Shown here in pieces: positions 398 to 47,971 of a stretch of DNA of 64,000 nt. Positions within the stretch are counted from its first letter, which is position 1, and every line of letters begins with the position of its first letter. The DNA lies in assembly GCA_041071465.1 (NCBI GenBank), contig CP163498.1, positions 5,288,001 to 5,352,000 of the forward strand, in the 5' to 3' direction. The position numbers were made by a program, and so were the translations under genes. Origin of the DNA: Pseudomonas putida (lineage in GTDB: Bacteria; Pseudomonadota; Gammaproteobacteria; Pseudomonadales; Pseudomonadaceae). Under the pieces are notes generated by a model. The model worked only from the letters and a program-made list of their open reading frames with translations, did not search any database and was not told the DNA's origin.

Positions 398-1144
398 TCA
401 GTCGTATTCCGCCTCTTCATGCTCACCCAGCAAACGCCTTTGCCGAGGCGTGGCTTCCTCCAGCACCTGCGGGTTGAAGCGCCAGTTCAAGTACGGCGAG
501 AACTTCTGCGCGACCATGCGCCGGCCATAGTGCACCTGCAGCATGTCGCGCTCGCGAGCCTGGCTGCAATTGGGCCCGGCGCTGTGCCAGACGTCGCTGC
601 GAAACACCAGTGCATCGCCCGCCTTGCACAACACGGCCTGTGCTTCACGCCCCTGCCAGTGATCTTCCCCCGCCTGGGGTGGCCGCGCCGCGCGGTGGCT
701 GCCGGGTACGATGCAGGTCGGGCCGATGCCGTGGTCGATGTCGCTGAGGTACAGCTGCGCAGTGAGGATTTGTGCGGGTTGGGTGAAGTCGCCTTGCGCG
801 CTTAGCCAATCAGGCAACTGCATGGGCAGATAATCCAGGTGCAAGGCCATGCCCGGGTAACCCGGATGGCTGCGCCAGGCAGTTTGCCCGATCAGATGGC
901 AATCAGCGCCCAGCGCCGCTTCAGCCAGGGCTATCACAGGCGGCAGGTCGAGAAAGGGCAACCACAACGGGTTGCGGTTGAACACACACTTGTAGTGTTC
1001 CAGCAGCCCCTGGTAGTCCCAGTGAATCGGCTGCAGGTCATCGATGGCGCAGCGCAACAAGGCGATGCGCAGGGGTTCGAGCACACCGGGGAGCAGCACA
1101 TAGCCCCGCTCGTCCAACATCTCCAGCTGAAGGTCCAGGTTCAT
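398..1144 (-). CDS. Phytanoyl-CoA dioxygenase (PhyH) family Fe(II)/2-oxoglutarate oxygenase
   Basis: A protein of about 248 residues with the PhyH jelly-roll metal site: H102-x-D104 in ALHLDYLP and a distal H187 in DVWHSAGPN, followed by arginines (R196/R198) suited to 2-oxoglutarate binding. PGSHR near 148 is also typical. The family hydroxylates small molecules; the substrate cannot be inferred. The start at 1144 (MNLDLQ) has GGAG about ten bases upstream. An in-frame ATG at 1162 has no ribosome site. A LexA2-type operator lies 24 bp upstream of the chosen start, which suggests DNA-damage control. The gene stands alone, with a different-type secreted protein gene upstream on the same strand. 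Confidence 0.8.
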   Translation of the reverse strand: MNLDLQLEMLDERGYVLLPGVLEPLRIALLRCAIDDLQPIHWDYQGLLEHYKCVFNRNPLWLPFLDLPPVIALAEAALGADCHLIGQTAWRSHPGYPGMALHLDYLPMQLPDWLSAQGDFTQPAQILTAQLYLSDIDHGIGPTCIVPGSHRAARPPQAGEDHWQGREAQAVLCKAGDALVFRSDVWHSAGPNCSQARERDMLQVHYGRRMVAQKFSPYLNWRFNPQVLEEATPRQRRLLGEHEEAEYD

Positions 1145-1167
1145 GACGATGTGCTCCGCCATGACGG

Positions 1168-1183
1168 GAGCACATTTGTACTC
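1168..1183. promoter_or_regulatory. LexA2-type operator upstream of the PhyH oxygenase
   Basis: On the minus strand this reads GTAC-AAAT-GTGC inside the 16-mer GAGTACAAATGTGCTC. The identical 16-mer, in the same orientation, sits at the lexA2 start (47956-47971). The flanks extend it to a near-palindrome, GGGAG...CTCCC, at 1166-1185. GTAC-N4-GTGC is the published P. putida LexA2 motif (recalled). Position relative to the gene fits a repressor site; regulation itself is inferred. Confidence 0.7.
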
Positions 1184-1198
1184 CCGCCCGTTTATCCA

Positions 1199-1642
1199 TC
1201 AACGCCAGTTCAGGTTCACGGTTGTGGGGGCTTTGCCATTCACGGTCACCAATTGCTGCACCGTCTCACCCTGGGCGTTGCCCATGATCTTGTACTTGCC
1301 AGGAGGCAACTGCACATACAGCAGCGGCCCGGCATCCGTGATGCTCAGTACAGGCTGGCCTTTTGCGTTCTGGATATCGACTGAAGCCCCGCTCTGGAAT
1401 TTGCCTTCCGCGCCAGTGGAAAGCTCCACATGCAGGTCATAACCAGATGTCTTGCGCAGCGCATTGGCCTCATCCTGGCCGATACCGCCTTGCAAGTAAT
1501 GCACGCCGTTCTGTTCCTGCGGTTGCAACTGCACGGCCTGCATGTCGATGGGGGCATTGAGATCGGCGGCGGCAGCCAGGGTCCATGGCAAGGCCAGGGT
1601 TAACAGCAACGCGGCGCCGAGTGCATAGTGATGGTTACGCAT
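1199..1642 (-). CDS. Secreted carboxypeptidase-regulatory-like domain protein
   Basis: A 147-residue protein with an excellent ribosome site (AAGGAGG seven bases before the ATG). Residues 1-25 form a signal peptide ending in LAAAA. The mature part has a central stretch (KGQPVLSITDAGPLLYVQ, LPPGKYKIMGNAQG) like carboxypeptidase regulatory or transthyretin-like beta-sandwich domains, with the usual GPLLxxxLPPGxYxI pattern. Such Pseudomonas proteins are periplasmic and of unknown function. No catalytic residues are visible. It is probably its own transcription unit: the LysR gene upstream on the same strand ends 133 bases away. Confidence 0.75.
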   Translation of the reverse strand: MRNHHYALGAALLLTLALPWTLAAAADLNAPIDMQAVQLQPQEQNGVHYLQGGIGQDEANALRKTSGYDLHVELSTGAEGKFQSGASVDIQNAKGQPVLSITDAGPLLYVQLPPGKYKIMGNAQGETVQQLVTVNGKAPTTVNLNWR

Positions 1643-8622: not shown

Positions 8623-9740
<1,118 letters not shown>

Positions 9741-42225: not shown

Positions 42226-45200
42226 TTAATGAAAATCCCGGCTACGCACATCCAGCCCTTGCAACAGCGGGCTCACATCCTCCAGCCGCCGTGCAATCAA
42301 GTGCCGCACACCATTCTCCTGCTCCAGCCGCCCACTGACCTTGAGCAGCTGAGACCCCACCAAGGCTCGCCGCTGCCGTTCGGCAATATCCCGCCACACC
42401 ACCACGTTGACCATCCCGTGCTCATCCTCCAGGGTAACGAAGGTCACTCCACTCGCGGTCTGGGGCCGTTGGCGGCCTACTACCAGCCCGGCCACGGCAA
42501 TGGTGTCGCCATGCTCGACACCTTGCAGCTCACTCGAGCTACGACACCCCAGCGCCCTCAGGCGTGAGCGCAGCAGGGCCAGTGGATGCGGGCCAAGCGT
42601 AGTACCGAGGGTTTGATAATCGGCTACCAGGTCCTCGTCCACGGTAGGTGCAGGCAAAGCCACCGCCACTTCCGGCAAGGCTTGCACGTCGGCGAACAAC
42701 GGCAGCTGCGGCTGCACCGCTGCCACCTGCCAGCGTGCCTGATGCCGATCGCTGGCCAAGGCCCGCAGCGCTCCGGCATCGGCCAGGCGGGCTCGGGCCC
42801 GTGAGTCGAGCCCGGCACGCAGGCACAGGTCTTCGACGTCGCGCCATGGCCGTTGCGCCCTTGCCTGCTGCAAACGCCTGGCATCGGCTTCGGCCAGGCC
42901 ACGCACAAGGCGCAAGCCCATGCGAATGGCCAACGTGCCATGCTCATCAGGCTCGAGGGTACAGTCCCATTCACTGTGGCAAACGTCTACGGGCCGCACC
43001 TCGATACCCTGGCGGCGAGCCTCCTGCAGCAACTGGTCAGGGCTGTAGAAGCCCATCGGCCAGCTGTTGACCAACGCACACGTGAAGATCGCCGGCTCAT
43101 GGCACTTCAACCAACTGCTGGCGTAGCACAGCAGGGCAAAACTGGCCGCATGCGATTCAGGGAAGCCATAGCTGCCAAAGCCCTTGATTTGCTCGAAGAT
43201 GCGCTGGGCAAACGCCAGCTCGTAACCGTTGCGCAGCATGCCCTGTACCAGCCGCTCGCGGTGCGGTTCCAGGCCCCCATGGCGCTTCCAGGCCGCCATG
43301 CTGCGGCGCAACTGGTCAGCCTCGCCCGGCGTATAGTCGGCTGCGACCATGGCCAGTTCCATCACCTGCTCCTGGAATAGCGGTACACCCAACGTACGTT
43401 CGAAGACTGCCTTGAGTTGCGCGGACGGGTACGTCACCGGCTCCTGTTTCAGGCGCCGGCGCAGGTACGGATGAACCATGTCGCCCTGGATCGGACCGGG
43501 GCGGACGATGGCCACTTCGATGACCAGATCGTAGAACGTGGTGGGCCGCAGCCTGGGCAACATGGCCATTTGCGCGCGTGACTCGATCTGGAACACACCC
43601 ATGGTCTCGGCGCGGCTGATCATGGCGTAGGTGGCTGGGTCTTCGCTGGGGATGGTCGCCAGGGTCAGCTGCCGGCCACGGTGGCGCTGCAGCAGGTCGA
43701 AGCAACGGCGCAAGGCACTGAGCATGCCCAGCGCCAGCACGTCGACCTTGAGCAAGCCGACCATGTCCAGGTCGTCCTTGTCCCACTGGATCACCGTACG
43801 CTGCGCCATGGCCGCATTCTCCACTGGCACCAACTGGTCGAGCGGTTGCTGGGAGATGACGAAGCCACCTGGGTGTTGCGACAGGTGCCGGGGAAGCCGA
43901 TCAGTTCACCAGCAAGTACCAGCACCCGCCGCAGCGAAGGGCTGCCGGCCTCAAAACCGGCCTCGGCCAGGCGCTGCTCATCGGGTATACGGTCGCTCCA
44001 GCGGCCACAGCACTTGGCCAATGCATCCACCTGGTCGGCAGGCAGCCCCAGCACCCTCGCCACATCCCGCACAGCTCCGGCGGCATGATAGGTGTTGACC
44101 ACCGCCGTCAGTGCTGCACGGTGCCGGCCATAGCGGCGGAACACGTACTGGATCACTTCTTCGCGTCGGTCATGCTCGAAATCCACATCGATATCGGGCG
44201 GCTCGTTGCGTTCGCGAGACAGAAATCGCTCGAACAGCAGGTGATGCTCCATAGGGTCGAGTTCGGTGATGCCCAGCACGAAACACACTACCGAGTTGGC
44301 TGCCGAGCCACGGCCCTGGCACAGAATGCGCTGGCTGCGGGCGAAAGCGACAATGTCGTGCACGGTCAAGAAATAGCTTTCGTAACCAAGCTCTTCGATC
44401 AACGCCAGTTCCTTGGCCAGCACATCGCGCACCTTTTCACTTGGCCCGTTTGGCCAGCGCAACGGCAAGCCCTGCTCGCACAGATCACGCAACCAGCTGG
44501 CCGGGGTGTGGCCCTCGGGCACCAGTTCGCACGGGTACTGGTATTTCAATTCGCTGAGGTCGAATTGACAGCGCTGGGCAATGGTCAAGGTCTCTGCCAG
44601 CAAGTTGGCCGGGTACAGTTCCCCAGTTGCGCTTGGCTGCGCAGGTGCCGCTCGCCGTTGGCAAACAGAAAGCGCCCGGCCTCGTTTACCTGGCAATGCT
44701 GGCGGATGGCAGTCATGCAGTCCTGCAAGGCACGGCGGCCTCGCACATGCATATGTACGTCGCCACAGGCCACGGCGCGCACGCCCACATCAGCCGCCAG
44801 TGCCTGCAGACGCTGCAGGCGCATGGCATCGTCACAGCCCCGGTGCAGGTGCACGGCCAGCCACAGACGCTCGGCGAATACACTGCACAGCCATTCACCG
44901 GTGGCTTTATCAACACTGTCGTCGGCCACCCACAAGGCCAGCAGGCCTTGATGGTGCTGCTGCAGGTCGTCACGAAACAACTGGTACTCACCCTTCTCTG
45001 TCCGCCGCCGGGCACGGGTGATCAGTGCGCACAGGTTCTGGTAGCCGGTCAGGTTCTCGACCAACAGCACCAGCTTGGGCCCGTCGTGCAACTGCACCTC
45101 GCTGCCGACGATGAGCCGCAGCTGATGCGCCTTGGCGGCCTGCCAGGCGCGCACGATACCGGCCAACGTGCATTCGTCAGTAATCGCCAAGGCCTGGTAG

Positions 45201-45304
45201 CCTTGTTCGCGCGCGCGCCGGAACAGCTCATCGGCACTCGACGCACCGCGCTGGAAGCTGAAGTTGGACAGGCAATGCAGCTCGGCATAACCCGGCGTGC
45301 TCAT
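42226..45304 (-). pseudogene. dnaE2: Error-prone DNA polymerase DnaE2, frameshifted at about 43890 and 44621
   Basis: Three consecutive frames join into one protein of about 1026 residues, the normal DnaE2 length. It begins with a PHP domain ([20 protein letters not shown]), has the catalytic region [20 protein letters not shown], and ends with the OB-fold and tail ([20 protein letters not shown]). Breaks are at GGGG 43890-43893 (coding strand CCCC, one C short: [16 protein letters not shown] should follow) and CCCC 44621-44624 (one G short on the coding strand: [13 protein letters not shown]). Together with ImuA and ImuB it performs mutagenic translesion synthesis. Its start overlaps the imuB stop by four bases. 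Both breaks look like sequencing errors. Confidence 0.9.
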
Positions 45305-46719
45305 GCGAACCAGCCCTGCAACCACAGTGGGCCGGCCTGGCTCAAGTCGCGGTAGGCCCAGCCGCGCAGGCCGTCACGGGTTTCGATATGGTAGTAATCG
45401 CGTCGCACATCGCCGCCATCCCACCAACCGGATTCGATGCGTTCAGCGTAACCCTGCACCTGATAGCCGGCGCCATCCAGCGCCATCGGTGCCGGCAGCA
45501 GCCAGCCTGGGCGACTGCCTGGGGCAACCGGCATGTGGCCTTGAGCGCCCTGCTCTGCCAGTTGCCAGGCGCATTCGGGGCGGTGATCGGCTGCCGCGCT
45601 TAGCCCCTTGACGGCCTCATCCCCCAGGCGCGCGCGCAGCCGCTCACGCAATTGCTCCCAGGGTTGCGCCTGTTGCGCCCGAGGGTCGAACAACGCCTGA
45701 TGCTGTGGCACGAACGGTGGCAAGTCTTCGGCCACCAGCCGCAGGTTGCGCACCGGTGCGGGTATGCGTAGCGGCTCCAGGCGGCCACGGGCCAATTCGA
45801 ACAACATCGACGCATCGCGTTCGGCCGCCAGCAGGCCAACCTTGAGCACCGTGTCTGGCCCCTCGGCATGCTCCAGATACAGGCAAAAGCGCTGCACCCC
45901 GCAGTCGCGCCCGGCCAGAAAGGCAGCAAGGTCGTTGAGCATGCGCCGCAGTGGGAACAACAGCGCCTGGTGCGATTCGACGTCGAAGTTCAGTTCGAGA
46001 CGGGTTTCAAAGCGGTCCGGTGGCCGATAGAAGTCCAGCCCCAGGTTGCGCAGGCCTAGCAGCTGGTCGAGGTGCAACTGCACCTGGGCAGAAAAGCGTC
46101 TGGCCAACGTGTCGCGCGGCAAGGCCACTACCTGGCCCAGCTGGCGCAGGCCCATGCGGGCAAAAGCTTCGGCGGCTTCTGCCGGCAAGCCGACACGTGT
46201 GATGGGCATGCTCAACAGCGCTGCACGGGTGGCCTCGGCATCGCTCACGGCCAAGCCATCGTGCCCATTGGCAAGCATGCGAGCCGCCACCGGGTTGCTA
46301 GCCAGAACGATGCGTTGGCGCAGGCCCAGTTCTGCCAACTCCTGGCGCAGGCGCGCCTCGAACAAAGGCCAGGGGCCGAACAGTTGCAGGCTGGAGCCTA
46401 CTTCCAGCAACAGCGCCCGAGGGTAATGCAGGCTGACCTGGGCACTGAAGCGGTAAGCCCAGGCTGCCAGCAGTTGCTGCACCTGGTCGATGCGTTTTGG
46501 GTCGACTTCGACGCAGGTGAAGCCATCCGCCAGGGCACGCGCTGCAGTCAGGGTTTGCCCGGCTCGCAGGCCCAGTGCAGCGGCGGCCATGTTGACCGAC
46601 TGCAACACACGTCGCTGAGTCGGCCCGCCAATGAGTACCAAGGGGGTATCAAGGTCGTCACGCTCACGCAGCACGGTATCCAGCGCAAGCTGGGGGAGCA
46701 GAATGCAAGCCCAGAGCAT
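45301..46719 (-). CDS. imuB: ImuB, Y-family polymerase-like translesion factor
   Basis: A 472-residue protein with the Y-family fold. The N-terminal catalytic segment is degenerate ([10 protein letters not shown] in place of the DxD region), as in other ImuB proteins, so it is thought to be inactive as a polymerase and to act as a clamp-binding hub for DnaE2. [16 protein letters not shown] and [13 protein letters not shown] match the family; [20 protein letters not shown] is the HhH region. The gene lies between imuA (six-base gap) and dnaE2 (four-base overlap) in the LexA2 operon. Confidence 0.9.
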
Positions 46720-46725
46720 GGCGCA

Positions 46726-47346
46726 TCAGCCCCGCCCTGGGCAGGCAATGGGCAGCGCTGGAGGCATGCCACCACGGCTTTTCAGCACGCGCCATTGTGC
46801 CGGCCGAGTGTCGACGGCAATGCGCAGTGCTGCCGGTGAAGGGTTGTGCGCCGCCTGCTGCGGCCTGCAGGCGAATGCCAACGCCTGACCGGTTTCGGCG
46901 GCCACCTGCAAGCGCCGCAGGGCGCGGTCATCGGCGCGCTCCGGCCAGCACAGCACCGCCGCACAACTGCCCGAGCGCAGGCACTGCTCGGCGGCCCACA
47001 GGGCATCGGCAGGTTCGGCGTCCACTTGTACCAGCCAGCGCAGGTCCACACCTGCTGCCTGCCAGGCCGGTGCGTAAGGAATGAAGGGCGGTGCCACCAG
47101 CACTACGCGGTTGGCATCTGCACTCAGCCGGGCCAGGGTTGGCCACAGCAAGTGCAACTCGCCACAGCCGGGGCTGGCCAGCAACAGCTCGCTCAGTGCT
47201 GCCGCCGGCCAGCCGCCTTCGGGCAAGCGGGCGTCGAGGGCCGCATGGCCGGTTGGCTGCAACCCGAGTGGCCGCGCCTCGGCCTGCCGACCGCGCCAGA
47301 TACGGCGCTGGTCGAGCAGCCTGTCGAGGTCGACCACCGCGCCCAT
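46726..47346 (-). CDS. imuA: ImuA (SulA2/RecA-like) mutasome protein
   Basis: A 206-residue protein distantly related to RecA. LPEGGWPAAALSELLL and GELHLLWPTLARLSADANRV correspond to the P-loop region but lack a perfect Walker A lysine. It ends GMPPALPIACPGRG. ImuA is required with ImuB and DnaE2 for damage-induced mutagenesis. Its start codon overlaps the lexA2 stop by one base. Confidence 0.88.
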   Translation of the reverse strand: MGAVVDLDRLLDQRRIWRGRQAEARPLGLQPTGHAALDARLPEGGWPAAALSELLLASPGCGELHLLWPTLARLSADANRVVLVAPPFIPYAPAWQAAGVDLRWLVQVDAEPADALWAAEQCLRSGSCAAVLCWPERADDRALRRLQVAAETGQALAFACRPQQAAHNPSPAALRIAVDTRPAQWRVLKSRGGMPPALPIACPGRG

Positions 47347-47963
47347 CAGTCGCGCCTCAGCAGGCCGCAGAATACGCCTTCGATGAAGAATTCCTGTTCT
47401 GGCTGCACATCGATGGGCGCATAGGCCGGGTTACGGGGCAACAGCCGGTAATTGCCGCCCTGGCGTTGCAGGCGCTTGATGGTCACTTCGCCGTCCAGGC
47501 GCGCCACCACGATCTGCCCGTCACGGGCGTCGGCCTGTTGCAGGATGCCGACCAGGTCACCGTCGAAGATGCCGTCGTCGATCATCGAGTCGCCACGCAC
47601 TTTAAGCAGGTAGTCAGGGGTGCGGCGGAACATGCTGGGGTCGAGCAGCAACTGTTCGTGGATATCGAGGTCCGGGCCTATGGGGGCGCCTGCCGCTACC
47701 TGGCCCAGCACCGGGATTTCGAGAATCTCCGGCCGGCGCAACGGTTCGGCCAGGCGAATGCCCCGCGCCTGGTTAGGCGTGACATCGATGTAACCGGCTT
47801 GGCACAGGGCGGTAATGTGCTTGCGGGCGACGCTGCGCGAAGCAAAACCGAAGCGCGTGGCGATATCGGCCAGGCTTGGCGGCTGGCTGTGCTCGGCAAT
47901 GCGCTCGCGGATGAATTCGAAAATGGCGCGGCGCTTGGGGGTAAGATTGTCCATGGAGCACAT
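47346..47963 (-). CDS. lexA2: LexA2 repressor of the mutagenesis operon
   Basis: About 205 residues. The N-terminal winged HTH (PPSLADIATRFGFASRSVAR) differs from LexA1 in the recognition helix. The self-cleavage site is A-G in QVAAGAP, with catalytic Ser in KVRGDSMIDDG (S123 from MDNL) and Lys in DGEVTIKRL (K160). Two ATGs are possible: 47963 (MCSMDN, AAAGAG five bases before) and 47954 (MDNLTPKRR, aligns best with LexA1). The upper one lies inside the operator itself. It represses its own operon (imuA-imuB-dnaE2) and is cleaved when RecA is activated. Confidence 0.92.
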   Translation of the reverse strand: MCSMDNLTPKRRAIFEFIRERIAEHSQPPSLADIATRFGFASRSVARKHITALCQAGYIDVTPNQARGIRLAEPLRRPEILEIPVLGQVAAGAPIGPDLDIHEQLLLDPSMFRRTPDYLLKVRGDSMIDDGIFDGDLVGILQQADARDGQIVVARLDGEVTIKRLQRQGGNYRLLPRNPAYAPIDVQPEQEFFIEGVFCGLLRRD

Positions 47964-47971
47964 TTGTACTC
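47956..47971. promoter_or_regulatory. LexA2 operator at the lexA2 start
   Basis: Minus-strand GAGTACAAATGTGCTC contains GTAC-N4-GTGC, the recalled P. putida LexA2 motif. It covers the first possible start codon, so LexA2 binding would block the start of its own operon directly. The same 16-mer occurs at 1168-1183. Confidence 0.85.

Follow-up and report, generated by a model that had tools for sequence, protein, structure and literature searches.

In Pseudomonas putida, LexA2 binds the sequence GTAC-N4-GTRC, and the LexA2-regulated imuC promoter is cited as inducible by mitomycin C (both from PMC5544203). The lexA2-imuA-imuB-imuC genes are placed under LexA2 control in PMC3901139, PP3901 is given as the sole gene under both LexA proteins in PMC4595014, and the lexA2 promoter serves as a damage reporter in PMC5261740. 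A preliminary description of the DNA studied here had given the LexA2 regulon as tiny, comprising its own operon and one prophage gene, in agreement with PMC4595014 and PMC3901139. Among the matches listed in a search of the openly licensed literature (titles and starts of abstracts), no report of a PhyH gene as a LexA2 target was found. Here we analyse a 64-kb stretch of a P. putida genome (the window), in which a predicted LexA2-type operator precedes a PhyH-type oxygenase gene, phyH, and is contained in a stem-loop.

Results

The exact 16-mer GAGTACAAATGTGCTC occurs on the minus strand at 1168-1183, upstream of phyH, and again on the minus strand at 47956-47971, where it constitutes the LexA2 operator of lexA2 and overlaps the start codon region. 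No further place in the 64-kb window lies within 3 mismatches of this sequence. The preliminary description had reported such a same-strand pair, and both copies are exact; the interval that it gave for the phyH copy, 1166-1185, extends 2 bp beyond the 16-mer at either end. With the base composition of the window, 1.1e-5 exact copies are expected in 64 kb, which upholds the rarity claimed earlier but not the exact value of 3e-5. A third exact copy is located at C1:5157504-5157519, giving 3 copies per 6.32 Mb genome where 0.001 would be expected by chance. The site upstream of phyH had been called a perfect LexA2 operator, and it indeed fits the published consensus GTAC-N4-GTRC and agrees letter for letter with the operator that lexA2 has in this genome; by prediction, the site is an operator of the LexA2 type. 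The looser pattern GAGTACNNNNGTRCTC, of 12 positions, matches six places in the genome versus 1.4 expected and 2 for a reversed control pattern, and some of the six may be due to chance. A lone 12/12 match is therefore weak evidence, and the case rests on conservation. An ORF scan cannot separate real from chance sites, since five of the six 12/12 sites, including those of lexA2 and phyH, lie inside a mechanical ORF of at least 150 aa.

The operator is located in the gap between two minus-strand genes, u147 (1199..1642), a 147-aa ORF directly upstream of phyH, and phyH itself (398..1144), whose 248-aa product is assigned to the PhyH-type Fe(II)/2-oxoglutarate oxygenases from its PF05721 match, orthologue starts, and invariant residues. 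The longest phyH ORF opens at ATG 1162, 5 bp from the operator. The gene likely starts at ATG 1144 instead, because the ATG equivalent to 1162 is missing in most orthologues, an in-frame stop lies ahead of the 1144 start in 7 of 36 upstream regions, and a probable ribosome-binding sequence, GGAG (1154..1157, minus strand, read 1157-1154), precedes ATG 1144; most of the 27 aligned leaders are purine-rich at this place. The start used in the preliminary description is therefore the better one, and its placement of the operator 24 bp before the dioxygenase start corresponds to 23 bases between the site and ATG 1144. No sigma-70-like promoter was detected on the minus strand within 1100-1800, and the spacing upstream of the operator varies among orthologues. 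The u147 product, secreted-looking by eye, matches no Pfam family over its cut-off. Among 17 named loci, 15 have u147 next to phyH, as part of a neighbourhood ALDH-LysR-u147-phyH-acyloxyacyl-hydrolase-like that is kept in these 15 (ALDH and acyloxyacyl-hydrolase-like are names that we presume for the outer neighbours). In guariconensis (L056), u147 is absent, and flexibilis (L055) has no such neighbours beyond a weak ALDH match.

The longer phyH ORF matches PF05721 (PhyH) at 56.1 bits (cut-off 22, 8e-15), the sole Pfam family at E <= 0.001. The idea of a DNA- or nucleotide-modifying oxygenase, raised in the preliminary description, found no footing in these searches, as there is no AlkB or TET/JBP match in Pfam and no family match in NCBIfam. 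His102, Asp104, His187, and Arg199 are invariant in 16 orthologue sequences and fit an HxD...H...R arrangement that we take to be the Fe(II) triad plus the 2-oxoglutarate-binding Arg. An AlphaFold2 model built from the 16-row alignment has a mean pLDDT of 35.5, too low to judge a double-stranded beta-helix fold. The nearest solved sequences are SptF, DhiD, and TlxI, presumably natural-product oxygenases, and to our knowledge DNA-damage control is unusual for the PhyH family. No phyH relatives were found among viral contigs, no phage record matches the phyH region, and the four plasmid matches are remote (24.5-27.7% identity). The genome carries a second PhyH-family gene at C1:6021272-6021901 (L274, 88 bits).

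At the other end of the window, lexA2 (47346..47954, minus strand) would encode the presumed repressor, with 202 aa from ATG 47954 or 205 aa from ATG 47963; the protein matches TIGR00498 (180.5 bits, cut-off 110.95), PF01726, and PF00717. ORFs at 42226..47346 on the same strand form the rest of the operon, and from their position we take them to be imuA, imuB, and dnaE2/imuC. The presumed dnaE2/imuC region (42226-45325, minus strand) consists of three overlapping ORFs in different frames, the result of either a frameshift in the gene or indel errors in the sequence. An ORF at 8653-9138 (plus strand), which we assume to be polyamine-binding-protein-like, also seems to switch frame near its end, compatible with sequencing indels. 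The composition of the lexA2 operon follows PMC3901139.

We surveyed 398 genomes of the genus, found a phyH relative in 70 at E <= 1e-40, and scanned 330 bp upstream in all 70 phyH-bearing genomes with a score that, following the lexA2 operator, accepts G in place of A in either of the GTAC halves. The 70 regions contained a 12/12 site in 18 cases, 11/12 in 3, and 10/12 in 1, whereas 1,400 mononucleotide shuffles of them yielded 0, 3, and 50, respectively. The 30 nearest of the 70, combined with 16 of the 17 named loci and with duplicates removed, gave 36 distinct upstream regions; the locus left out, L040, has the same phyH and leader as the window. Of these regions, 21 contain a 12/12 site, 4 an 11/12 site, 1 (G190) a 10/12 site, and 2 a 9/12 site, with 8 scoring 8 or less. 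Of the two 9/12 regions, G308 has a degenerate site in the usual position; the match in G170 is unrelated and lies 183 bp upstream. A search among 194 relatives returned zero further phyH orthologues.

A column profile of 27 sequences reads GGAGTAC-RNNT-GTRCTCC, with half-site columns of 1.4-2.0 bits, except for the R column (0.7 bits), values that are inflated because the sequences were chosen by score (at least 9, G170 dropped). The first and last of the four centre bases are constrained, and the inner two drift (0.2-0.5 bits). Position 7 is G in 8 of the 27 sequences, and the operator-to-start distance is 23 bp in 20 of the 27 rows. G364 and G193 have different intergenic DNA, with the site 125 and 130 bp upstream and still at 12/12. 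All 27 genomes of the profile have a LexA2 match at E <= 1e-60. The operator is maintained by evolution upstream of phyH, in the pattern of a site for a dimeric protein.

In the tree of PhyH proteins, a single 24-row clade (support 83/85) bears the site in 23 rows and in degenerate form in G308, and outside it the site is also present in G025 and in G127/G190, two further lineages. The P. putida-group part of the tree has 32 rows, and five upstream regions in it do not have the site: guariconensis, G371, and the group of peradeniyensis, spGD04091, and G170. The site is likewise missing in all 40 of the phyH relatives that are most distant among the 70 (62-70% identity). Since 25 of these 40 distant genomes have a LexA2 match (15 have none, as read by hand), recruitment of phyH appears to be lineage-specific. 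The preliminary description had proposed looking for the site in related strains; it is conserved in much of the P. putida group (25 of 36 regions at 11-12 of 12), but this conservation does not extend to the 40 most distant relatives.

We also compared the lexA2 operators across genomes. Those found have the centre AAAT, except for AAGT in G025; none was found in G127 (best 8 of 12) despite its LexA2, or for the second LexA2 of G364. The GTGC/GTAC variant is the same at the lexA2 and phyH operators in 18 of 24 genomes (G364 was coded by its other half). Coevolution of the variants at the two operators was considered and set aside, as tree-aware pairing leaves too few independent pairs. Among 199 genomes compared by hand, each of the 149 that have a LexA2 match (E <= 1e-60) carries at least one 12/12 site, as expected because lexA2 itself supplies one, and the 50 genomes with no LexA2 match divide into 24 with a 12/12 site and 26 with none.

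The predicted operator is contained in a stem-loop (1164..1187, minus strand) with a 10-bp stem and a 4-nt loop, identified by RNA folding and covariation. In much of the clade, the bases flanking the operator extend its symmetry, with varying sequence and conserved pairing. Among 23 sequences, the pair k=2 is formed in 22, with six pair types, against 12.1 expected when partners are shuffled, k=3 in 20 (14.0 expected), and k=5 in 20 (17.4 expected, p 0.04), in tests that leave out G364, G193, G127, and G190, whose leaders differ, a choice that favours the stem, and that ignore relatedness in the shuffles. The nearly constant pair k=1 and the pairs k=4 and k=6-8 display no significant covariation by partner shuffling in the same sequences. 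A control that preserves relatedness, in which the partner is slid by 1-4 columns, reduces the paired cells for k=2-5, 82 of 92 in register, to 55 or fewer and the double-change cells, 16 in register, to 10 or fewer; the extra pair types, 11 against a slid maximum of 10, are hardly above. The window leader (1138-1200, minus strand) folds at -27 kcal/mol (z -3.6), and the other leaders give z values of -4.3 (L041), -2.6 (L051), and -1.9 (L049, plecoglossicida); no comparable fold exists at the lexA2 operator region (z -0.3). No Rfam match was found at E <= 1 within 900-1900, and a terminator reading of the stem-loop was rejected, as no terminator-like site was called. The stem-loop with its covarying outer pairs is a new observation, and in many species it places a second constraint on the same bases.

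A natural contrast between operator and hairpin is offered by G308 (L075), where compensated changes keep the stem and the operator core is down to 9/12. Conversely, few of the flank pairs k=1-5 are formed in several leaders despite an 11-12 of 12 operator: one in plecoglossicida and in G025, two in G193 and in G127, and three in G245 and in G364, those of G245 not all adjacent. Because the operator is kept where flank pairs are few and the stem is kept in G308 without the operator, the two constraints look separable, with operator and stem superimposed on one sequence.

LexA2-type sites were also seen elsewhere. Sites of 11-12 of 12 lie ahead of a thymidylate-kinase-like gene in 6 of 30 loci examined, at C1:4998420-4998435 in the genome of the window (L005/L244) and in L245, L246, L247, L249, and L254, 71-73 bp before the gene (162 bp in L249); the two loci tested match PF02223, and by position G065 has such a site as well. 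The gene possibly belongs to the family of KT2440 PP_3363, a gene treated in PMC10653934; the link is our own inference. The third exact 16-mer, at C1:5157504-5157519 (L001, L009), lies between two small hypothetical ORFs, and a similar block with the exact 16-mer occurs in G057 (L011); neither Pfam nor PHROG yielded a match at E <= 0.001 for the neighbours tested around the C1:5157504 block. A block, TAGAGGGGAGAGG, is found just ahead of the LexA2-type sites of L007 (C1:6026064 in the genome of the window), L013, L016, L020, L023, and L038, and neighbours in L013 and L016 match phage families of unknown function. GAGTAC-N4-GTACTC palindromes in L178, L179, and L190, from genomes with no LexA2 match, suggest another regulator with a similar site. 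Viral contigs contain at least 120 stretches with the extended operator, about equal to a rough chance estimate for which the collection size was assumed.

Discussion

Because its operator is identical to that of lexA2 and evolutionarily maintained, phyH is probably a new member of the very small LexA2 damage regulon. Judging from the sequence, the 16-mer at 1168-1183 quite probably functions as a LexA2 operator and keeps phyH repressed until the DNA is damaged; binding, repression, induction, and the position of the promoter are what we infer here. A predicted LexA2 dimer on the operator would repress phyH, or its part of a u147-phyH unit. DNA damage would then trigger RecA-stimulated self-cleavage of LexA2 and free the operator, and the oxygenase would be made together with the lexA2-imuABC cassette.

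The element could instead be in the first place an RNA structure, a stem-loop in the stretch from u147 to phyH that acts as a transcript 3' end, a stabiliser, or a translational control, with its likeness to the LexA2 operator being secondary. Covariation of the outer pairs k=2 and k=3, the fall in paired cells upon partner sliding, folds at z -3.6 (window), -4.3 (L041), and -2.6 (L051), and the survival of the G308 stem by compensated changes with an operator core of 9/12 are all as such a stem-loop would have them, and some of the symmetry of the operator region evidently has a different cause, given the flanking hairpin. However, the inner six pairs do not covary like the outer ones, and their nearly fixed letters are those of the lexA2 operator, which has no such fold (z -0.3). 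Moreover, an 11-12 of 12 operator stays where flank pairing is poor, the plecoglossicida leader (L049) folds weakly (z -1.9), extra pair types number 11 versus 10 after sliding, and neither a terminator call nor an Rfam match was obtained. We consider a primarily RNA element unlikely.

The site might also be used by another palindrome-binding repressor, for example of the FabR/DesT kind. FabR and DesT are fatty-acid regulators, and GAGTACAACTGTACTC-type sites do occur near an ORF that we take to be fabA-like in L178, L179, and L190 (G177, G078, and G185), all without a LexA2 match. Against such a repressor, the phyH site has the same sequence as the operator of lexA2 in this genome and allows G at position 7 (8 of 27 sequences). 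The site is also absent from all 40 of the most distant phyH relatives, including 15 without a LexA2 match, and we judge the involvement of such a repressor very unlikely. Chance, or a decayed relic with no function, could account for some matches to the 12-position pattern, with about 1.4 places expected per genome and six seen, but it would hardly explain the 12/12 sites in 21 of the 36 distinct regions, most of them at a constant distance and with diverging adjoining bases, and we give this explanation scarcely any credence.

Returning to LexA2 control of phyH, we tentatively raise the possibility of a double control, doubtful as it still is, in which the bases that serve as a LexA2 operator in the DNA also form the core of a conserved stem-loop in the transcript. 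If so, DNA damage would switch phyH at both the transcriptional and the RNA level, and the oxygenase would be a conserved arm of a LexA2 response whose regulon has so far been confined to mutagenic repair and phage genes. The conserved operator of an oxygenase that looks metabolic, together with those ahead of a nucleotide-kinase-like gene, suggests a broader response under the second SOS repressor. The superimposed stem-loop also makes a good case of one sequence under both DNA-binding and RNA-folding constraints.

In comparison with known systems, the phyH product shares its family match and the HxD...H...R residues with the solved PhyH-family relatives SptF, DhiD, TlxI/J, SnoK, and EasH, whereas sequence similarity to them is weak (best profile E 5e-8). 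The E. coli-type LexA (LexA1) SOS boxes, CTGT-N8-ACAG, likewise place a repressor of the same family on a palindrome, with a half-site that differs from that of LexA2. With the known LexA2 regulon of P. putida (lexA2-imuA-imuB-imuC and the prophage gene PP3901), the phyH site shares the consensus, the 16-mer, and nearness to the start codon; in contrast to that regulon, the predicted target here is a PhyH oxygenase rather than translesion-synthesis or phage genes, and the operator lies inside a stem-loop.
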